From assembly GCF_023650515.1 (NCBI RefSeq), contig NZ_CP096016.1:3970001-4034000 (forward strand): DNA of 64,000 nucleotides, read 5' to 3'. Source of the stretch: Alkalimarinus coralli (GTDB lineage Bacteria > Pseudomonadota > Gammaproteobacteria > Pseudomonadales > Oleiphilaceae). Each line of letters starts with the position of its first letter. Positions within the stretch are counted from its first letter, which is position 1. Position numbers and translations under genes: made by a program. A model generated the notes under the pieces. That model was not told the origin of the DNA, searched no databases, and saw only the letters and a list, made by a program, of their open reading frames with translations. Shown piece after piece: positions 6,946 to 17,779 of the stretch.

Positions 6946-9900
6946 ATGCACCTGTTAGCTGCCAAACCCGGTGGGTTCTCTGACGATGAAGGAATCATCG
7001 ATCTACAGCAATCACCGGCAGATATCGTCATCCTGGCTGCACAAGATAGTACGCTATCAATGCTGGCACAGTGTGCAGAGCGCCTGCCGGATGACTACCC
7101 CGGTATACGGCTGGCTAACTTTGTTAACCTCACTAAACCAGCGGCTTTTGACCTCTATGCCCATAAGGTGCTGGAGCAAGCAAAGCTTATTATAGTGTCA
7201 CTATTAGGGGGGAAGGCCTACCTCCCTTATGGCGTTGAGCAACTTCAGAAAATTTGCAACAGTACCGGCGCGCAACTGGCGATTGTACCGGGCGATGACC
7301 AACCGGACGAAGAGCTGTTCTCAGCCAGTACACTTGAAAGAGAAGACCTGATACGAATCTGGCGCTATTTGCGAGAAGGCGGTATTCGCAATACTGAAAA
7401 TGCCTATCGTTTTATTCAGCAAACCTTTTTTAAAGCGTCTCTGCCTCACAGCGAATCTATCACCGCATTTGAAGAGCCTCGCCCACTGCCCCGAACACTG
7501 ATCTACTGCCCACACCAACAGGAGCAGTCATTTCAGGAGTGGCAACAAAAAGTGCATCGGCGTCGCGAGCAGTCTGGGCAGTCAATTCCTACCGCTATTT
7601 TGCTGTTCTATCGAAGCCACCTTCAAGCAGGAAATACCGAAGCCTTTTCGGCGTTTATCAACGTGCTTGAACAACAAGGCCTGGCAGTATTGCCCATTGC
7701 CACCGCTTCATTAAAAGAACAAGAGTGTAAAGTTCTGGTCGATCAACTGGCACAAAAAAGTGACTGTCGGATTTTCCTGAACACTACCGCCTTCTCCATT
7801 CGCTCAGCGACCCTATCTACCACCAGCGAAAATGGAGCGCAAACCCCTTTAGGCAATGCACACCTTAGCTCTCAACCAGATTTGTTAGAACCAGATGCCC
7901 TATTTTCGGTCAATGCACCGGTGCTGCAAGTTATTCTCGCGGCGAATAGCGAAGATGATTGGCTCGAACACAGCCAAGGGTTACGCGCACGGGATATCGC
8001 TATGAATATTGCGCTGCCCGAAATGGATGGCCGAGTTATTTCCCGGGCGATCAGTTTTAAAAATGAAACCCAACTAAGTGACCGCACAGAATACAGTCAA
8101 GTTGGTTACCAGCTGCAACCGGATCGCGCAGAATTTGTTGCCGAACTTGCTGCTCGTTGGGCGTCACTCTCCATCACGCCTAATAATGAAAAGCGGGTTG
8201 CACTTATTCTTGCCAACTACCCTACCCGGGATGGCCGCATCGGCAACGGAGTCGGGCTTGACACCCCAGCCTCAACCATCGAAATACTTAACGCAATGGC
8301 AGGCGCGGGCTACCCTGTTAAAGCAATACCCGACACCGGTAATGCCTTGGTTGAAGAACTGCTAGGCAACATCACCAATGACCTCGACAGTATAGACTTG
8401 AGGCCCTGCCAGCAAAGCCTGGCGATAGACGAGTATCAGCACTATTTCGATAACCTGCCTCAAGAGTGCCAACAGGCGGTGTTAGATCGGTGGGGGCAGC
8501 CCACACAAGACCCCAAATATCGTTCCGGCCGTATTATGATCGCAGGTATTCGATTAGGGGAAACATTTGTCGGTATTCAGCCCGCCCGCGGGTTTAACAT
8601 CGATGTGGCGGCTAACTATCATGACCCAGATCTCGTGCCCCCTCACAGCTACCTGGCCTTCTATTTCTGGCTAAGACACAGCTACGAAGTTGATGCCTTT
8701 ATTCATATAGGTAAACACGGTAACCTCGAATGGTTACCAGGAAAAGGCCTGGCACTGAGCAACCAATGCTGGCCCGAAATCGCGCTGGGGCCAATGCCAC
8801 ACCTGTACCCGTTTATCGTTAACGACCCCGGTGAAGGGGCACAGGCAAAACGTCGCAGTCAGGCCGTGGTGCTCGACCACCTAATGCCCCCCATGACGCG
8901 AGCAGAAAGCTACGGAGAGCTCCAGGAGCTTGAACAATGGGTTGATGAGCTGTATCAGGCAATGGGGCTGGATGCTCGCAGAGAAGCCCTGCTGAGAAGC
9001 AAGATTCTCGACCTGATCAACCGCACTAACTTACTGGCTGAACTGAATTTAAAAGGCGATGACGTTAACGATGAAAACGCTGTACTCAACGAATTAGATG
9101 CCTACCTGTGCGATCTTAAAGAAGCACAAATTCGAGACGGGTTACATATTTATGGCGTAAAACCTGATGGCGAGCAGCGAGTGGATACGCTGGTTGCCCT
9201 TACTCGCCTGCCACGCGGCGAGCAGCGCGTCGAGGATGCCAGTATTCTCAGTTGTCTCGTAAAAGATTTAGCACTAACCTTGGAACCACAGCCGGATAGC
9301 CCGCTATTCGACCCGCTTCAGTTTGACGCCAAAGCACCTTGGTTAGGCCCTCAACCCGCTATCCTCAGCGATATACATCCAAGCCCGTGGCGAACCCATG
9401 CCGACACCCGTGAGAAACTTGAGTTACTCGCTAAACAGTTAATATCAAGCCACTTTCCGGATCAGGCTATAGATGAAAAAAACGGTGCGCAAGCGCACGC
9501 TATGGTGAGCCAGTTTGCGTGCACTTATGAACTTTTTCAGCATATTTCAAACGTTATCGCCCCCGCCTTTGACGGCAGTGCCTGCGAAGAGTTACGACAA
9601 CTTCTAAATGGTCTCGAAGGTGGCTTTGTCCCTCCAGGGGCCAGCGGCGCACCGACACGAGGCCGATTAGATGTGCTGCCAACGGGCAGAAACTTCTACT
9701 CGGTCGATAGTCGCAGTATTCCAACTCCTGCCGCCTGGGAGCTGGGGCAGGCCTCCGCAGAGCAATTGGTCATGCGCCATCTGCAAGAGCATGGTGATTA
9801 CCCCAAAACGCTCGGGCTATCGGTGTGGGGCACTGCAACAATGCGTACCGGAGGCGATGACATTGCCCAGGCTTTCGCGCTAATGGGCATTAAACCGGTT

Positions 9901-10890
9901 TGGGCATCAGGCTCTAATCGGGTTGTCGACTTCGAGATTATTCCCAATTTCTTATTTAACCGGCCTCGTGTCGATGTGACATTACGGGTATCCGGCTTTT
10001 TCCGTGATGCCTTTCCCAATGTCATGAAGCTATATGATGCCGCCGTCACCGCGCTTGCCGAACACCAGGAGCCTGGTAACACCAATACAATAAAACAACG
10101 CATCGATAGTGATATTGAGCGCTTAACCCAAGACGGCCTTTCGCCAGAGCAAGCACAACAGCAAGCACGATGGCGAGTGTTCGGCTCCAAACCCGGCGCT
10201 TACGGCGCTGGCCTTCAAGGATTAATCGATGAACGTTGCTGGGATACACCCGATGACCTGGCTGAGGCATATATCAACTGGGGCGGTTATGCCTATGGCC
10301 AAAGCGATCAAGGCACCGAGGCATTTTCAACATTCGAGCACCGCTTAGGCCAACTGGAAGCCGTGGTACAGAACCAGGATAACCGCGAACACGACTTACT
10401 GGATTCCGATGACTACTATCAATTTCAAGGGGGCATGACCAATGCGGTCAGAGTGATTTCAGGTGATACCCCCTCGGTCTACCACGGTGACCACGCCAAC
10501 CCGGCTGCTCCCAAAATAAAAACACTGCAAGAAGAACTCAATCGCGTCATTAGATCCCGCGTTATTAATCCAAAGTGGATCAATGGAATGCAGCGACACG
10601 GCTATAAAGGCGCGTTCGAAATGGCCGCCACTGTCGATTATCTGTTTGCCTACGATGCCACCACAGACATGATTGCTGATTACCAGTATGAAATGGTGGC
10701 GGATAATTACCTGTTTGAAGAAAAAAACCGGCGGTTTTTAGAGGAAAACAACCCGAAAGCGATGCAAGAAATGGCTGAGCGAATGATGGAGGCCATTCAA
10801 CGGGGGTTATGGGAAGCCCCTCAAGAATACGCAAGCCAGCTAGAAGACCTGCTCCTAGAGATTGAAGATAAGCTTGAGCAAGAAATGTAG
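6946..10890 (+). CDS. cobN: Cobaltochelatase large subunit CobN
   Basis: The large subunit of the ATP-dependent aerobic cobaltochelatase, which inserts Co2+ into hydrogenobyrinic acid a,c-diamide. The 1314 residues start MHLLAAKPGGFSDDEGIIDL, a hallmark of CobN. The conserved core includes ALILANYPTRDGRIGNGVGL, FIHIGKHGNLEWLPGK, GEGAQAKRR and, further on, LPTGRNFYSVD, WGTATMRTGGDD and INWGGYAYG. It is slightly longer than the usual 1250-1280. The partner AAA subunits CobS and CobT (or ChlI/ChlD-like proteins) are not in this window. No strong ribosome-binding site is visible before the ATG. The stop codon TAG lies inside the first bases of a family 2 repeat. Confidence 0.94.
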   Translation: MHLLAAKPGGFSDDEGIIDLQQSPADIVILAAQDSTLSMLAQCAERLPDDYPGIRLANFVNLTKPAAFDLYAHKVLEQAKLIIVSLLGGKAYLPYGVEQLQKICNSTGAQLAIVPGDDQPDEELFSASTLEREDLIRIWRYLREGGIRNTENAYRFIQQTFFKASLPHSESITAFEEPRPLPRTLIYCPHQQEQSFQEWQQKVHRRREQSGQSIPTAILLFYRSHLQAGNTEAFSAFINVLEQQGLAVLPIATASLKEQECKVLVDQLAQKSDCRIFLNTTAFSIRSATLSTTSENGAQTPLGNAHLSSQPDLLEPDALFSVNAPVLQVILAANSEDDWLEHSQGLRARDIAMNIALPEMDGRVISRAISFKNETQLSDRTEYSQVGYQLQPDRAEFVAELAARWASLSITPNNEKRVALILANYPTRDGRIGNGVGLDTPASTIEILNAMAGAGYPVKAIPDTGNALVEELLGNITNDLDSIDLRPCQQSLAIDEYQHYFDNLPQECQQAVLDRWGQPTQDPKYRSGRIMIAGIRLGETFVGIQPARGFNIDVAANYHDPDLVPPHSYLAFYFWLRHSYEVDAFIHIGKHGNLEWLPGKGLALSNQCWPEIALGPMPHLYPFIVNDPGEGAQAKRRSQAVVLDHLMPPMTRAESYGELQELEQWVDELYQAMGLDARREALLRSKILDLINRTNLLAELNLKGDDVNDENAVLNELDAYLCDLKEAQIRDGLHIYGVKPDGEQRVDTLVALTRLPRGEQRVEDASILSCLVKDLALTLEPQPDSPLFDPLQFDAKAPWLGPQPAILSDIHPSPWRTHADTREKLELLAKQLISSHFPDQAIDEKNGAQAHAMVSQFACTYELFQHISNVIAPAFDGSACEELRQLLNGLEGGFVPPGASGAPTRGRLDVLPTGRNFYSVDSRSIPTPAAWELGQASAEQLVMRHLQEHGDYPKTLGLSVWGTATMRTGGDDIAQAFALMGIKPVWASGSNRVVDFEIIPNFLFNRPRVDVTLRVSGFFRDAFPNVMKLYDAAVTALAEHQEPGNTNTIKQRIDSDIERLTQDGLSPEQAQQQARWRVFGSKPGAYGAGLQGLIDERCWDTPDDLAEAYINWGGYAYGQSDQGTEAFSTFEHRLGQLEAVVQNQDNREHDLLDSDDYYQFQGGMTNAVRVISGDTPSVYHGDHANPAAPKIKTLQEELNRVIRSRVINPKWINGMQRHGYKGAFEMAATVDYLFAYDATTDMIADYQYEMVADNYLFEEKNRRFLEENNPKAMQEMAERMMEAIQRGLWEAPQEYASQLEDLLLEIEDKLEQEM

Positions 10891-10993
10891 CCTAAATACC
10901 ATGAGGGACGAGCGAAATCGGCAAGGGTGAGAAGTAAAGCCATGATGCGGGTTACTCCTTGATTCCAGTCGAACCTCCTTTCATCACGGCTAC
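10887..10993. repeat. Family 2 repeat, copy 2, overlapping the cobN stop codon
   Basis: It starts GTAGCC, of which TAG is the cobN stop codon, and ends CATCACGGCTAC. The inner part is degenerate compared with the copy at 5545-5641, but the right-hand TTGATTCCAGTCGAACCTCC segment matches the other copies. It may serve as a 3' hairpin for the cobN transcript; this is inference. Confidence 0.65.
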
Positions 10994-11004
10994 GAGCGCC
11001 TGAA

Positions 11005-11307
11005 CTATAACTGAGGGCAACCCTTTATGGTCAAAGCAATATTAGTCGCATCTTTGACATTTTGATAATAAGCATCTGAAGTCTGAACAACAGAACCCGC
11101 CAACTCACCGTATTCAACGTTAATCATCTTCCCCAGATTAGTTAACGCATCAACCGACTGCCGATCGGCGTCGTAAGCGGAAAACGCACCTTGAATCTGA
11201 TCACAGGTAAACGCACCCATACCATTGGATGCCATACTGGATAATTGACCTGATGTCTGGCAACCCGTCAACGTGATGAGCGCGACTAAAAGAAATTTCT
11301 TATTCAT
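11005..11307 (-). CDS. Small predicted lipoprotein of unknown function
   Basis: This 100-residue protein begins MNKKFLLVALITLTGC, a lipoprotein signal peptide with lipobox LTGC and Cys16 as the lipidated residue, so it should be anchored to a membrane and face the periplasm. The frame is open four codons upstream from a TTG, but the ATG at 11307 gives a standard signal peptide and has GAG upstream. The mature part has two cysteines (in AFTCDQIQGAF and near the C-terminus in KGCPQL). I do not recognise a domain. It stands alone on the minus strand, opposite to cobN and the desaturase. Confidence 0.75.
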   Translation of the reverse strand: MNKKFLLVALITLTGCQTSGQLSSMASNGMGAFTCDQIQGAFSAYDADRQSVDALTNLGKMINVEYGELAGSVVQTSDAYYQNVKDATNIALTIKGCPQL

Positions 11308-11719
11308 ATTGAATCTCAAGGGTTATAGAAGAAGAGTTAAGCCGAGCCATTTTAATGAGTTACAGCGTTAAATGTAACCCTAAACCAAAGCCTGTGCCGA
11401 ATGACCGAGTAAAAGATTGAAGCCTGACAAACAGTTGAAGTAGTGGGTACAATCAAGATTAATAACAAATAAACTAAATTATGATTCAGTCAAACTATTA
11501 AAGAAGCAAAAGGAAATAGATTCAAGTCGCCTGTACTAAAGCGCTTTTCGTATAAAAACTAATTCCAATGACAGTTCAGTATTCTCCGTTACGTTTACTA
11601 TTCAAAAATTCACAATTATTGCGTACGTTTGTAAGCTGAATCACTCAAAAAATAAATAAACTCTGTTATGATAAGCCAATACTCGCTAAAGCTATTAAAA
11701 CTGTTTGCCGGAATACGCT
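11308..11719. other. Intergenic region between lipoprotein and desaturase genes
   Basis: About 410 bases of AT-rich DNA that must hold the divergent promoters of the lipoprotein (leftward) and the desaturase (rightward). No clear operator palindrome, small gene or structured RNA was seen. Confidence 0.5.
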
Positions 11720-12838
11720 ATGAATAAACCCAATATCATTTGGACCAATGTACTGATTTTTTCAATTACCGGGTTGGTCGCATTAATCGGCGTTCCTTGG
11801 TACGGGGTTGTTTATGGCTATGATGGCTACCATTTGCTCGCCACGGTGCTCTGTATTGGTTATTGCGGTATGTCGATCACTGCGGGCTACCACCGCCTGT
11901 GGTCTCATCATGCTTATGAAACCAACATCGTCATTCGTATTATCTATGCCATAGGCGGTGCATTTGCCCTGCAAAATAGTGCCTTGCACTGGTCATCAGA
12001 CCATCGTGTACACCACCGTTATGTTGATAACAACGAGAAAGACCCCTACTCCGCCAAAAAAGGATTCTGGTATTCTCATATTGGCTGGATGTTGAGAGAG
12101 TACCAACGTGAACGTTACGATGACTATACGAATGTTCCTGATTTGAAGCGCGACCCTGTCGTTATGTGGCAGCACAAGAACTATATTTGGTTATCAGCAG
12201 CCACCAATTTTGGCATCCCGTTAGCAATTGGCTTTTGGCATGGCGATATTTGGGGCATGTTACTAACGGTGGGTGTACTACGCCTGGTTATTTCTCATCA
12301 TGTGACATTCTTTATTAACTCCCTGGCGCACCTGTGGGGCCACCAACCCTATAGTGATAAAAACAGTGCTAAAGATAACGCGCTCATCGCCTATTTTACC
12401 TTTGGCGAGGGTTACCACAATTACCACCATAGCTTTCAGTTTGACTATCGCAATGGCATTCGCTGGTGGCAGTTTGACCCAACTAAATGGCTTATCTGGA
12501 GTTTGGATAAGCTAGGCTTGGCCGGGAACTTGAGACGTTGCGGCAACGAGCGTATTGAAAAGGCCAAAGCCCAAATGCTGCTACAAAAAGCCAATGATGG
12601 ACTCAGTAAACTCCCCAATGCTGATGAAATAAGAGATAAACTACATACAGAATACGAACACCTGATTGAGCATATTAACCAAGCGTATGAAGCCAAAAAA
12701 GCATGGCTGGAAATGAAGAAGAACGACTTAATCGAGGCTTATGATAAGTCTGAAGCAATGAAGCAGTACAAAGAGCTTAAGTCTAACCTTCAGGAGCAGC
12801 GCGAGCGATGGAATAGTTTGGTGGCTCAATATGCCTAA
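11720..12838 (+). CDS. Acyl-CoA delta-9-type fatty acid desaturase
   Basis: A membrane di-iron desaturase that introduces a double bond into an acyl chain. The three histidine boxes are intact: HRLWSH (58-63), HRVHH (95-99) and HNYHH near residue 235. Hydrophobic segments flank them as in the stearoyl-CoA desaturase fold. The C-terminal 90 or so residues are highly charged and probably form a coiled coil, an extension beyond the catalytic core. A TTG at 11705 is in frame, but the ATG at 11720 gives a normal start and 372 residues. Whether the substrate is acyl-CoA or lipid-bound cannot be told, and no regulator gene is adjacent. Confidence 0.88.
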   Translation: MNKPNIIWTNVLIFSITGLVALIGVPWYGVVYGYDGYHLLATVLCIGYCGMSITAGYHRLWSHHAYETNIVIRIIYAIGGAFALQNSALHWSSDHRVHHRYVDNNEKDPYSAKKGFWYSHIGWMLREYQRERYDDYTNVPDLKRDPVVMWQHKNYIWLSAATNFGIPLAIGFWHGDIWGMLLTVGVLRLVISHHVTFFINSLAHLWGHQPYSDKNSAKDNALIAYFTFGEGYHNYHHSFQFDYRNGIRWWQFDPTKWLIWSLDKLGLAGNLRRCGNERIEKAKAQMLLQKANDGLSKLPNADEIRDKLHTEYEHLIEHINQAYEAKKAWLEMKKNDLIEAYDKSEAMKQYKELKSNLQEQRERWNSLVAQYA

Positions 12839-12914
12839 CAGACTACGCACGTAGTTTCAGCCTCGGGCGTGTTAGATGTTAGATCTGCACGCCTACCGTT
12901 TAAAGGTTTATATC

Positions 12915-13709
12915 TTACCTTTTCCGGAGTTCAAACCCCTTCTCTAGCGCTTTATCCATATAGCCATCATCAATCATCTCTCGGATAACCTTTGCGAGCG
13001 CAGCGCGTAAAGTACGAGTATTGCATTTTGATTTTTTTGAGATAGTTAAATAAAGTCCTTCACTGCTAACCGATGGGGATAAAGGTACTATATTGTCCGC
13101 AATCCTCATTTGAGTAGCATAATAAATCCCCGGGTTTTTTTCATAAAGTACGTAATCTACTCGCTTTAAGATCAGCATTTTAAAAGCTTGTTCCAAACTA
13201 GCAACGAACTCAATGGTTAGCTGTTCCGAGGCAAACTCATCAAACTCCTGACCAAAGCTATTGTTGATGACCGTCGCACCCAACTTTCCGACGAGGTTTT
13301 TCTTTTCACGATAATTAAAGTTCTTTTCTTTATGCTGCCAGACAACACTTTTTGTACTCAAAAAAGGGGGGTGAACATAGTCCATCCATTGACTCCGGGG
13401 TGTGGTATAAAATGCCCCTGCAATCATATCTATGCGACCGAACTTAACTTCTTCTTGAGCTCTGGACCAAGCACCTACATGTTTTAGGTTAATATCAAGA
13501 CTTAGGCGAACGCCTATTTCTGAAATAATAAAGTCTATAGCGCCCCGTAACCGGTTATCGTCGCCATTATTGTGCCAAAGATAAGGGGGGTATTCCGAAT
13601 TTCCGGTCGCGCTAAGCTCTTTACATTCATTTGCGCTGACAATAGACACCGAGTTAAGAAAAGTTAACGCAATGAAAACAATCCTAACCGCAACACAACG
13701 AATTAACAT
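12915..13709 (-). CDS. Periplasmic solute-binding protein, family 3 (amino-acid-binding-like)
   Basis: 264 residues with an N-terminal signal peptide (cleavage likely near SIVSANE, residue 26) and the bilobed family 3 pattern: SEYPPYLW near the start, FGRIDMIAGAFYTTPRSQWMDYVHP for lobe I, and KLGATVINNSFGQEF for the hinge and lobe II. No ABC permease or ATPase is nearby, so it may be an orphan binding protein or a sensor module rather than part of a transporter. Family members of this stand-alone type are common in marine gammaproteobacteria. The ligand is unknown. It lies between the desaturase and the Tn7-like remnant and might be inside or outside the former element. Confidence 0.8.
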   Translation of the reverse strand: MLIRCVAVRIVFIALTFLNSVSIVSANECKELSATGNSEYPPYLWHNNGDDNRLRGAIDFIISEIGVRLSLDINLKHVGAWSRAQEEVKFGRIDMIAGAFYTTPRSQWMDYVHPPFLSTKSVVWQHKEKNFNYREKKNLVGKLGATVINNSFGQEFDEFASEQLTIEFVASLEQAFKMLILKRVDYVLYEKNPGIYYATQMRIADNIVPLSPSVSSEGLYLTISKKSKCNTRTLRAALAKVIREMIDDGYMDKALEKGFELRKR

Positions 13710-13851
13710 TAAAACACTCCAGAGCCTTAGATAGAATCTTAGTTTTGACTTTTATCATCTTGCGTTATTTCTTGCCTTCACGTAATAAACTATATCCAAA
13801 TATAGTTCAAGATATCACTGCATTCATGGTTTTACTTCTCAGAGCAACTTA

Positions 13852-14331
13852 CTATAGCTTCCAGCGGGCTGTAACTTCTACCCGTTCTAATTCAAGTTTT
13901 TCTATTGTTCCAGGGTCACTATATGCTTCCTTTGATTTGAGCTGAATGGCAAACCCCGGCTTGTCTTTCTCTAGAGAGTCAACGACAAAGTCGCTGCTCA
14001 TGTATTAATCCACACCTTGATAATTGGGATGTTGCACTCCCAATTGCTTACTTATCTCACGCGTCAACTTACGATCTAGTGGAAACTGCTCTCGAATGTC
14101 TGTAGTCGTTGAGCGCCATTGAAGCAGTAGGAATGTTGCGAGTTCTAGATCGGAGAGTAGATGATAGATACGCTGAGTAATTTGGCCATAAACTCGGTGA
14201 GAGCGACCATCGGAGGCTACATCACGAACAGTTAACCATGGCTTGTAGTTGGAACTTGTGCCTTGGCCTCTGCCTTCCTTGATCCACCGTTTGTTTTTGG
14301 CTTCAGAGTTCCAATATTGCTTCTTCCCCAT
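13852..14331 (-). pseudogene. tnsA: Broken tnsA (Tn7-type transposase endonuclease subunit)
   Basis: TnsA cuts the 5' ends of Tn7-like elements. The frame from ATG 14331 reads RWIKEGRGQG, PWLTVRDV, GRSHRVY, HLLSDLELATFL and DIREQFPLDRK, which parallels Tn7 TnsA almost residue by residue. After QHPNYQGVD there is a TAA (14005-14007), and the same frame continues YMSSDFVVDS, FAIQLKSKEA and TIEKLELER before a second stop at 13852. The three catalytic residues known in Tn7 TnsA (Glu in DLEL, Asp in MSSDF, Lys in IQLK) are all present but lie on both sides of the stop. The last 110 or so residues are missing and no tnsB follows, so the gene is dead. An in-frame ATG at 14361 also exists. Confidence 0.9.
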
Positions 14332-14382
14332 AGTAAATTGCCAACCAAACTCGCTTTTCATTAAAGTAGCTCAGATGGCAAA

Positions 14383-14429
14383 AGTTAACAACTATATTGT
14401 TTTATTAACGACTTTATTGTTCACCGACA
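14383..14429 (-). mobile_element. Tn7-like transposon right end with two TnsB-type sites
   Basis: Read on the minus strand, the end starts TGTCGGTGAACAATAAAGTC, closely matching the Tn7 right terminus TGTGGGCGGACAATAAAGTC. A second TnsB-like site, AACAATATAGTTGTTAACT, follows at 14383-14401. The terminal base at 14429 is 25 bases from the glmS stop codon boundary, the known Tn7 insertion distance. The tnsA remnant lies immediately inside the end with the expected orientation. The five bases 14430-14434 (AAAGA) would be the target duplication. Confidence 0.85.
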
Positions 14430-14453
14430 AAAGAAAATAAAGTTGGAAACTAA

Positions 14454-16286
14454 CTACTCTACAGTAACCGATTTTGCTAGGTTTCGCGGTTGATCGACAT
14501 CTGTTCCTTTTATCAAAGCCACATGATAACTAAGCAACTGAAGCGGTACGGTATAGAGAATTGGTGCGACAATCTTATCGCACTGAGGGACATCCAACAC
14601 TTTCATTGTGTCATCACTTTTAAAGTGTGCACCACTGTCTGCAAACACGTACATCAGGCCACCACGCGCTCTGACTTCTTCAACGTTTGAGTGCAGCTTT
14701 TCAAGTAACTCGTTATTCGGCGCAACCACAATCACCGGCATATCCGCATCGATGAGTGCCAATGGGCCATGTTTTAGTTCACCTGCTGCATAGGCTTCAG
14801 CGTGGATATAAGAGATCTCTTTAAGCTTTAGCGCCCCTTCCATTGCAATGGGGTATTGGTCACCCCGGCCTAAAAACAAGCTGTGGTGTTTGTCGGCAAA
14901 ATCTTCTGCAAGCGCTTTGATTTCATCATCCATATCCAGAGCCTGTTCGATTTTGGCCGGCAATGACAGCAGGGCCGCAACAATATCAGACTCTGTTTCT
15001 GAGTCCATTTGATTGTGTTTTCCAATAGCAGCTACCAGCAGTAATAAACCTGTTAACTGAACGGTGAATGCCTTGGTTGAAGCAACACCGATCTCGGCTC
15101 CTGCGTTCATCATGTACGCCAGATCTGATTCACGCACCATTGAAGAACCCGGGACATTACATATCGTCAGGCTTGATTTAAAACCCAGTTCTTTGGCAAG
15201 CCTCAATGCTGCCAGCGTGTCAGCCGTTTCACCAGACTGGGAAATAGTAACCAGCAGAGAATGGGGGTGAACAACCGGTTTTCGGTAACGAAATTCTGAG
15301 GCTATTTCCACATTACAGGAGATTCCGGCCAGCTCCTCAAACCAATAGCGTGCTGTCATACCTGCGTTATAGCTTGTTCCGCAAGCTATAATCTGTACAT
15401 GTTTAATATCTTTTAAGATGTCTTCAGCATTCTCACCAAAAATATTGGCCGAAAGCTTACCTGCCACTACTCGGTCTTTAAGCGTATTTTTTAGTGCAAT
15501 TGGCTGCTCATAAATTTCTTTCAACATGTAATGCTTGAAAGGCCCTTTGTCACCGGCGTCATGAGTAATATCAGACTCTTTTATCTGACGCTCTACCTGC
15601 TGGCCATTAGCGTCATAAATGGTGACTTTCTGCCGGGTCAATTCAGCAATATCGCCTTCTTCAAGAAAGGCAAAATTTCGGGTGACAGGTAACAGCGCTA
15701 ACTGATCAGATGCGAGAAAGTTTTCGCCCAAGCCATAACCTATAACCAGAGGGCTGCCTGAGCGAGCAGCGATCAGACGCTCTGGGTCTGTCTTATCCAT
15801 CACCACTGCGCCATACGCGCCTTCCAGTTGCTTTATCGTTGCCTGAAAAGCTGCAAGCAGAGTGTCGTGTCGTGTTAATTCAAAATGCACCAGGTGAACG
15901 ATGACTTCGGTATCAGTATCTGAGGTAAACTCATATTCCTGTTTGATTAGCATTTCACGCAGAGCATGATGGTTTTCGATTATACCGTTATGTACTACCG
16001 CAATACGCTCACCTGAGGTATGAGGGTGGGCATTGAGTTCATTTGGCTCACCATGAGTCGCCCAGCGAGTATGAGCGATCCCGGTGCCTCCAGCGCAAGG
16101 TGATTCTTCAAGTGCATCCATGAGTGACTGAACTTTGCCAACTCTTCGTACTCGATTAAATTCACCTTCTTTTGTTAACAGCGCAACACCTGCCGAGTCG
16201 TAACCTCGATACTCAAGCCTTCTCAGTCCTTCAACAAGAATTTCAGCCACATCCCTTTGTGCTACAGCACCAACGATTCCACACAT
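14454..16286 (-). CDS. glmS: Glutamine-fructose-6-phosphate aminotransferase (isomerizing)
   Basis: Makes glucosamine-6-phosphate from fructose-6-phosphate and glutamine, the first step of UDP-GlcNAc synthesis. The protein begins MCGIVGA, with Cys2 as the glutaminase nucleophile. [18 protein letters not shown] and the class II amidotransferase domain extend to about residue 220, followed by two SIS domains ([26 protein letters not shown]). It ends [13 protein letters not shown], the conserved sequence whose DNA is the TnsD target. The length of 610 is normal. The Tn7-like scar lies just 3' of it and left the coding sequence intact. No glmS ribozyme is apparent upstream. Confidence 0.97.
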
Positions 16287-16300
16287 TTTACTATTCCTGA

Positions 16301-16393
16301 TATAGGGTGCGCTTGCGCACCGTTTGATTCTTTACACCAATTTTTGAACTTGAGTCGGTTAACTCAAGATTTGGTGCGCAAGCGCACCCTATA
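16301..16393. repeat. Long inverted repeat between glmS and glmU (family 3)
   Basis: Perfect 21-base arms at 16301-16321 and 16373-16393, with core GGTGCGCTTGCGCACC, which is itself nearly palindromic. A second hairpin, CTTGAGT...ACTCAAG, sits in the loop. It could form a cruciform or clover-like RNA in the glmU-glmS transcript. A short relative with core GGGTGCGCCATACGCACCC is at 34414-34436. Confidence 0.8.
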
Positions 16394-16405
16394 GAATAAA
16401 TTCTG

Positions 16406-17779
16406 TTATTGCTTAACTGGCCGCTTCCAACCATCTACATTTCGTTGCTTACCACGGGCGACAGCCAGTTGCTCAGCTTCAACCTCTTTGGTGACCGTTG
16501 AGCCAGCACCAATAGTCGCTTTTTTGCCTATTTTCACAGGGGCAACAAGTGAGCTGTTAGACCCGACAAAAACGTCATCAGCAATTTCTGTCTTGAACTT
16601 ATTCACACCATCATAGTTGCAAGTGATTGTCCCTGCACCGACATTAACATTGGTTCCAAGCTCTGCATCACCAACGTAACTCAGGTGGTTAATTTTACTA
16701 CCCTCACCCACAATCGCTTTTTTGGTTTCAACAAAGTTACCCACTTTTGATTTATTAGCGAGTTGCGTACCTGGACGAAGCCGTGCAAACGGGCCCACAT
16801 TAACGCTTTCACCAACTGAACTATCTTCAACAATCGAGTTAGCGTGGATGGTGGTATTGCGGCCTATTTTAGAGTTTTTGATAATACAGTTAGGGCCAAT
16901 CACAACGCCTTCTGCCAACTCCACGTCACCTTCCAACACAACATTGATATCAAGAAAAACATCTTTGCCAATTGTTACATTGCCGCGAACATCAAGCCTT
17001 GATGGGTCAATAACCGTTGCCCCCTCAGTCATCAACCGTTTTGCTTGCTGCGCTTGATACCAACGCTCCAATGCCGCTAGTTGAACGCGATTGTTAATTC
17101 CCTGGACTTCCTCTTCACAAGCCGGATGCGCAACTGCGACTTCCATCTGGTCATCAACCGCCATCGCAATGATGTCAGTTAGGTAGTATTCACCTTGAGC
17201 ATTGGAGTTGGAAAGTTTAGGTAGCCACTCTTTTAATTTTGATGCAGGAGCTGCGAGAATCCCGGTATTTATTTCGTTAATAGCCAATTGCTGGGGCGTT
17301 GCATCTTTTTGTTCTACTATTGACGTTACAAAGCCTGAGCTATCTCGCACAATACGGCCATAGCCAGATGGGTCTTCGAGCGCGACAGTCAACAGTGCAA
17401 TGCTCTTTTCACTGACATGTTTGAGCAACGCGTTTAACGTTTGTGTATTTGTTAATGGAACATCACCATATAGAATAAGTACCGTCACATCATCCGGGAC
17501 ATTCGGCAGTGCCTGAGCAACGGCATGGCCAGTGCCTAGTTGTTGCTCCTGTATTGACCAGTGAATATCATTTGACGTGGTAATATTTTTAAACGACTCC
17601 CTGACCAGCTCTGCTCCATGCCCAATGACAATATGAGTCCCTGCGGTACCTAAATTTTCAGCATTTTCGACAACATGATGCAGTAGAGACTTTCCAGCAA
17701 GTGGATGTAAAACTTTTGGAAGGTTTGATTTCATGCGCGAGCCTTGACCGGCTGCAAGAATAACTACATGAACACTCAT
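16406..17779 (-). CDS. glmU: Bifunctional GlcN-1-P acetyltransferase / GlcNAc-1-P uridyltransferase
   Basis: Catalyses the last two steps of UDP-GlcNAc synthesis. The N-terminal uridyltransferase domain has the [20 protein letters not shown] motif (residues 8-27), LYGDVPL and NEINTGI. The C-terminal left-handed beta-helix acetyltransferase domain has the hexapeptide repeats from about residue 250, ending in [13 protein letters not shown] and [11 protein letters not shown]. The length of 457 matches the family. It lies upstream of glmS on the same strand with only the family 3 repeat between them, so both enzymes of the pathway may share a transcript. Confidence 0.97.

Follow-up and report, generated by a model that had tools for sequence, protein, structure and literature searches.

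The scar of a Tn7-like transposon beside glmS in Alkalimarinus coralli and a candidate read-through lock in its leader

The 64,000-nucleotide stretch of Alkalimarinus coralli DNA analysed here (hereafter, the window) very probably holds what is left of a dead Tn7-like transposon, whose insertion point lies 24 bp beyond glmS, at attTn7. The remnant is a decayed member of the well-known Tn7 and Tn7-like family, and the scar itself is ordinary, being another decayed Tn7-like element at a known Tn7 site that is mainly useful for tracing insertions and losses in this genus. From a comparison of its leader with those of related elements, we lean towards a model in which the right ends of this Tn7 branch, including that of the relic, would carry a self-exempting read-through lock made of one covarying hairpin. 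The features of the scar and its surroundings are as follows, with positions counted from the first base of the window:

14454 to 16286, minus strand: intact glmS (610-aa open reading frame; stop codon at 14454-14456), the 3' end of which is the attTn7 target
14430 to 14453, no strand: 24-bp spacer between the glmS stop and the element, in which 14430-14434 is the expected place of one copy of the 5-bp target duplication
14434 to 14453, plus strand: outward-facing TnsB-type site in the spacer, with 17/20 consensus matches
14381 to 14429, minus strand: Tn7-type right end, with a terminal TGT (14429-14427) and TnsB-type repeats at 14401-14420 and 14381-14400
13882 to 14331, minus strand: tnsA pseudogene covering residues 1-150 of 274, with an in-frame TAA at 14005-14007 and its 3' part lost
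13845 to 13881, no strand: deletion junction, where tnsA homology ends and native DNA begins, with the rest of the element and the left end missing
12915 to 13709, minus strand: native family-3 solute-binding protein gene beside the scar (Pfam PF00497, E 1.1e-10)

The GlmS protein of the window is 89.7-93.9% identical to the GlmS proteins of four sister genomes (G001-G004), and atp genes adjoin the glmS region among the open reading frames of the window. Read on the minus strand, positions 14429-14383 are TGTCGGTGAACAATAAAGTCGTTAATAAAACAATATAGTTGTTAACT. The terminal TGT begins at the 25th base past the glmS stop codon, with 24 bp in between, such that the 25-base distance given by an earlier, sequence-only reading of this DNA is right if the start of the TGT is counted as the 25th base; the segment marked in that reading ran to 14434 and thus takes in 5 bp of flank, where the target duplication would lie. 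That reading had also likened the terminal TGT and the two TnsB-type sites to the Tn7 right end and attTn7 geometry, and this holds, with the same kind of layout (a glmS stop, 20-27 bp, then TGT and TnsB-type repeats) found at 46 loci including that of the window. The spacer is 24 or 25 bp long in 41 of these 46 loci, and 44 of them contain a match to tnsA (40% identity or more), in a few cases several kb away. We note that 46 is a lower bound, as the regular expression used missed ends that are readable by eye (such as those of L041 and L055), and that most loci were chosen for encoding a TnsA relative, so that these counts are not natural frequencies. The count leaves out L002, L003, L006, L011 and L014 (second copies), L034 (near-identical to L035) and L019 (a chance pattern match).

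Within the window, the inner repeat of the right end has one match at up to 3 mismatches compared to 0.05 expected in shuffles, and the outer repeat has seven compared to 3.1 expected, a number reached by 3 of 100 shuffles; the patterns were written from the window itself, and exact matches in it therefore arise by construction. A covariance model of the end and leader, built with the window copy left out, matches positions 14323-14393 with 57.5 bits (E 1.8e-7), and its next-best place in the genome has an E value of 1.7. The outward-facing site in the spacer scores 17/20 against a TnsB-site consensus that was typed after this site had been seen; each of the two right-end sites also scores 17/20, and nowhere else in the window reaches 16. 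Compared to the spacers of the 46 loci, that of the window lies 4.3 standard deviations above the mean of 9.4, with 13 as the next-best score. It may, we guess, have arisen by template switching as a copy of the right-end repeat close by.

Just inside the right end, the remnant aligns with residues 1-150 of the intact 274-residue TnsA of Shewanella surugensis (L024) at 76% identity with one stop codon, and this query carries the Pfam TnsA N and C domains. The open frame spans 118 codons (14005-14361), and beyond the single TAA, TnsA homology resumes in-frame to about 13880. By best segment, TnsA identity to the nearest relatives (L021-L027) is 78-84%, led by a Thalassolituus bin (84%) and Psychromonas arctica (82%), followed by Hahellaceae BB19 and Providencia heimbachae (79% each) and by Shewanella surugensis, a Cycloclasticus bin and a Paraglaciecola bin (78% each). 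The identification of tnsA rests on tblastn and a protein search: Pfam made no call on the 118-aa piece, and a TnsA-N model search of the genome gave no match, with none obtained for the control of this model either. The earlier reading was correct about the end itself and overlooked the tnsA remnant lying just inside it.

On the far side of the remnant, homology to the host DNA of G001 covers 12913-13844 (714 of 944 aligned positions), spanning the solute-binding-protein gene and its upstream region. This gene has a 74% identical copy at a like position in G001, and a trace of its 3' end, read by eye, is present in G003; these observations, together with the host homology, led us to reject it as transposon cargo and to regard it as native. 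Because tnsA homology stops at about 13880 and native DNA runs from 13844 downward, nothing remains of the other parts of the element or of its left end, and the scar measures approximately 0.55-0.6 kb. The right end and the tns genes point away from glmS, which is the standard orientation. The bases AAAGA at 14430-14434 would be the right copy of the target duplication; AAAGA directly before a TGT is absent from 8001-14500, the left end being gone. With both the left end and the second copy missing, the insertion cannot be closed by its duplication.

Searches of the own genome of Alkalimarinus coralli gave no tnsB match (the same query matched in G003 and G008) and no second tnsA, and there was no match to the TnsC or TnsD/TniQ proteins of L024, the latter two queries having no positive control. 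Judged by homology with G001, no left end with TnsB sites lies between the tnsA remnant and native DNA, and farther out, where right-end-type site patterns were used, inexact matches fall inside the native gene. Two such plus-strand TnsB-like matches, near 13047 and 13525, were considered as a left end and rejected, as they lie inside the solute-binding gene shared with G001. Going by this lack of a tnsB match, the sequence is not that of a functional element. In the course of events that we infer, TnsABC with TnsD would have recognised the end of glmS and inserted the element, one or a few deletions would then have removed its interior, and what was left would be unable to move by itself.

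The sister genomes differ at this site. G003 has glmS without an element, with a gap of 0.2 kb between glmS and a desaturase gene and the trace of the solute-binding gene between them, and G002 has other genes at the glmS site and no right end. Other remnants are present in the remaining two: G001 has a solo right end with no tnsA, and G004 has a three-site right end with tnsA homology over only 158 residues, ending 95 bp before the contig end. The spacers of the window, G001 and G004 are equally long, and that of the window shares 11 and 10 of its 24 bases with G001 and G004, respectively, compared to 15 shared between G001 and G004. As so few spacer bases are common to the window and these two genomes, the sequence comparison indicates that the region is changed outside the element too. 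Taken together, the alignment of the window end with many Tn7-type right ends at an equal distance from glmS, the tnsA pseudogene in the right orientation and the comparison with sister genomes support the claim that a Tn7-family element once inserted beside this glmS; neither a lack of similarity to Tn7-like ends nor the same sequence in relatives with no sign of insertion was found.

A number of neighbouring or similar loci were noted along the way. Between glmS and glmU, the window contains a perfect 21-bp inverted repeat, TATAGGGTGCGCTTGCGCACC, at 16301-16393, and this repeat is also present beside another Tn7-type end in G001 (L103). The solo right end of G001 (L100) is separated from native sequence by ~0.58 kb of DNA (15898-16480), parts of which are found again at other places in G001 and at one place in G002. 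At L109 (G007:C19, from 15728-16245 downward), the 3' part of glmS is present in a partial second copy, separate from the main gene, and a decayed Tn7-type right end comes after it. In G003, a Tn7-like element (C4, 140234-143114; L105 and L151), with an open tnsA and a tnsB containing two TAG codons, lies on another contig than the glmS match, and the glmS site of that genome is without an element. Finally, at L107 (G031:C13, 13460-13660), two Tn7-type ends face each other right after glmS, 195 bp tip to tip and with near-identical 5-bp flanks (CCTGC/TCTGC), and a second right end, unlike the first, comes directly after them; this looks like a natural mini-Tn7 and then another element. A dispersed non-autonomous family within the own genome of Alkalimarinus coralli was considered and rejected, as a query made from the G001 relic and run against 38 genomes matched only the end in the window there; elsewhere, it matched six places in four other genomes, G001 included.

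Two other accounts of the locus have to be weighed against a dead Tn7-like insertion. AT-rich repeats in the 3' region of glmS could look like TnsB sites by chance, without any transposon, and such an account might be entertained since single TnsB-like sites are common: at up to 2 mismatches, there are 33 genome-wide compared to 27 in a reversed control, and 31 of the 33 are inexact (1 or 2 mismatches). The only two exact matches are, however, the neighbouring right-end repeats. Two good sites stand in tandem, their TGT is at the canonical distance, a tnsA pseudogene with 76% identity over 150 residues comes next, and the leave-out model matches at this one place in the genome, which together bring the probability of this account close to nil; the adjacent tnsA already refutes a chance origin of the repeats. 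The other account, in which the locus is a still mobilisable non-autonomous derivative (a natural mini-Tn7) served by tns proteins in trans, draws on the paired ends at attTn7 in G031, 195 bp tip to tip and directly followed by a second right end, and on the right end without tnsA in G001. As no left end was found from 13844 down to 12913 in the comparison with G001, nor farther out by right-end-type patterns, and as the own genome has no tnsB match, we consider this highly improbable. The scar of a dead Tn7-like insertion is thus the reading that we retain.

The segment between the innermost TnsB site and the start of tnsA contains two further features:

14363 to 14391, minus strand: predicted tns promoter, with the -35 hexamer TTGTTA (14386-14391), a 17-bp spacer and the hexamer TACTTT (14363-14368) at the -10 position
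14337 to 14380, minus strand: leader hairpin before tnsA (fold of -16.4 kcal/mol, z -2.4, p 0.03)

In relatives, the hairpin likewise lies between the last TnsB site and tnsA, directly before the start codon. We compared 46 leaders, obtained by collapsing those that are >90% alike (58 to 46), from elements with a TnsA at least 50% identical to that of the window. The leaders fold better than dinucleotide shuffles at p<0.05 in 38 of 46 cases (mean z of -4.4) and do not in the remaining eight. In a sequence-only alignment, the 12 consensus pairs show 81% pairing and 107 double-change cells, compared to 39.8 in shuffles (standard deviation of 6.6) and 12-40 in slid versions, and a second alignment of 42 leaders gave 106 compared to 40.4, with the caveat that double-change cells count related sequences rather than independent events. 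Four leaders were left out of the second alignment: that of the window (L001), those of L065 and L067, in which the start codon was misplaced, and the rearranged one of L098. In the aligned sequences, A-C cells are depleted (22 compared to 53 in shuffles) but G-U cells are retained (75 compared to 93). This difference points to a hairpin that acts as RNA, transcribed in the direction of glmS and tns, rather than as DNA. RNAalifold on the divergent alignment returned only 6 pairs (-2.2 kcal/mol), and neither Rfam nor Pfam gave a match for the remnant or the leader. The window copy keeps 11 of the 12 consensus pairs, although these need not reflect present selection, as this copy sits before a dead gene.

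The best conserved alignment columns include TTG and TA...T (with 17 columns between the hexamers), a GG close to where the 3' arm ends, along with two Ts and the ATG, suggesting that a promoter and a ribosome site overlap the hairpin, with the -10 box in the 5' arm and the ribosome-site-like GG in the 3' arm. Correspondingly, in the window, the -35 hexamer lies inside the inner TnsB site and the hexamer at the -10 position inside the 5' arm, this promoter having been assigned by its register with the aligned leaders. A promoter scoring of the window leader favoured the nearby hexamers TTAACT/TTTAAT instead, a general promoter scan called neither the window promoter nor that of the Tn7 leader, and a terminator scan called none in either. 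The best-scoring promoter has a -10 box that begins in the 5' arm in 33 of the 46 leaders and not in the other 13. This search was limited to -10 starts from -75 to -13 relative to the ATG, and some of the 33 positives, including that of the window, are out of register. The last 10 leader bases contain on average 5.5 T, and this T-run is weak in the clade of the window, where the hairpin is nevertheless kept.

Folding in silico, with the start of the element's own RNA set at -25, gave a mean unpaired probability of the ribosome-site region of 0.11 in read-through RNA and 0.46 in own RNA, compared to 0.35 for read-through RNA with shuffled upstream sequence. Accessibility of this region is lower in read-through than in own RNA in 43 of 46 leaders, and lower than in the shuffled control in 42 of 46. 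Its predicted binding to the anti-ribosome-site sequence is only moderately stronger than that of shuffles (-4.5 compared to -3.9 kcal/mol, p 0.005).

In the lock that we propose, transcripts arriving from glmS or any other neighbour would fold, so that the ribosome site of tnsA is masked, and they are predicted to end at the hairpin if it has a T-run after it. The element's own transcript would start in the loop, lack the 5' arm and hence be translated. As the -35 box lies within the innermost TnsB site, the tns promoter might in addition be closed by TnsB.

The leader model extends to a limited set of elements. It matched 5 of 12 further tnsA loci (L163, L164, L172, L173 and L174), of which L163 is the training contig of L037 and the other four are outside the training set; by eye, L174 resembles the trained L045 and L172 the trained L044, and the L172 leader folds no better than its shuffles. 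The model was silent at the other 7 of these 12 loci, which belong to distant Tn7-like elements (TnsA identity of 29-43%), and gave no match at L072 (57% TnsA identity). A scan of 369 genomes yielded no independent new case, the one match besides the window being the training locus L037. Against 68 sources, it gave 42 matches at E up to 1. Most of them lie at tnsA starts, which follows by construction from the use of many of these loci in training; three are partial matches on the reverse strand. The hairpin is also present in plasmid-borne Tn7-type elements, namely Tn7 on R721, L173 and L174. Second leader-model matches were seen at two loci: in L043 (14133-14204), the match coincides with the beginning of another partial tnsA match, which suggests tandem elements there, and in L065 (15390-15459), there is no second tnsA match.

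A hairpin at this position could serve other purposes than a read-through lock. It could act solely as a transcription terminator standing in for that of glmS, leaving the ribosome site uninvolved. Tn7 reportedly inserts into the transcriptional terminator of glmS (so the title of Gay et al. 1986), and many leaders end in a T-run, with that of L014 scoring as a terminator. However, the clade of the window keeps the hairpin in spite of its weak T-run, and the hairpin is also present in plasmid-borne Tn7-type elements (R721 Tn7, L173, L174); we regard a terminator-only role as possible but unlikely. We think it more unlikely still that the hairpin is a DNA operator or cruciform, that is, a palindrome bound by a repressor or the transposase. 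This would be in line with the palindrome of VchCAST, which, according to PMC10201428, affects insertion orientation through the sequence of one arm and not through its palindromic nature. Against an operator, the arms differ between elements and co-vary, the G-U and A-C cells behave as expected of RNA, and the promoter hexamers, the GG and the ATG are among the best conserved letters. We therefore continue with the read-through lock as our favoured reading.

Part of such a lock may already be known, since glmS transcripts reportedly stop some 127 bp inside Tn7, close to right-end position 131, where the T-run of the hairpin ends in the R721 copy of Tn7. If the lock is real, Tn7 could sit in the terminator of glmS, an essential and expressed gene, without switching on its own transposase. 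It would also bear on mini-Tn7 tools: the hairpin and T-run occupy right-end positions 95-131 of Tn7, so that a 90-bp right end, which is used as sufficient for transposition in PMC2918618, leaves the hairpin out. The addition of terminators inside Tn7 ends against read-through has been proposed (PMC4328036). In the literature surveyed (including passages of PMC10201428, PMC12150760, PMC11406308, PMC2918618, PMC12823268 and PMC4328036), with older papers such as Gay et al. 1986 outside its scope, we found no account of a hairpin against read-through in the right ends of Tn7.

Compared with known systems, the relic shares with Tn7 of E. coli (R721 copy, L159) the TGT terminus, the tandem TnsB sites and an inward-reading tnsA just inside the right end, as well as the hairpin and promoter before tnsA, which reads TTGTAA-17-TATGCT in that copy. 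Tn7 has an intact tnsA, whereas that of the window is broken, and the TnsA pieces are 55% identical. The window end also has two TnsB sites, in contrast to the four overlapping sites of the Tn7 right end described in PMC11406308. Elements at glmS in Hahellaceae BB19 (L022), Psychromonas arctica (L023) and Shewanella surugensis (L024) have the same right-end repeat and a similar leader, but three right-end TnsB sites rather than two, and L024 has, unlike the window, intact tnsA, tnsB, tnsC and tnsD (by open reading frames and Pfam). The Thalassolituus element (L021) has the same right-end repeat, with the matching tnsA 9.4 kb from the end beside glmS. Two sites need not mean decay, as the element of Hahella ganghwensis (L032/L014) also has a two-site right end, 24 bp past glmS, and its tnsA and tnsB are open.

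The proposed mode of action has a precedent in other transposase families. In IS10 and IS50, an inverted repeat overlaps the promoter and the ribosome site, and only transcripts from outside fold, giving protection against read-through in the same mode as the proposed lock; the leader here differs in belonging to a multigene operon beside an essential gene. Within Tn7-like elements, the type I-F CAST VchCAST has a palindrome 97-107 bp from its right end, which, as in the present leaders, lies between the right-end TnsB sites and tnsABC and has a suspected tie to tnsABC transcription (PMC10201428). In the section of that source considered here, the VchCAST palindrome was tested for insertion orientation, unlike the role in read-through and translation that we propose here for the leader hairpin of the Tn7 branch.
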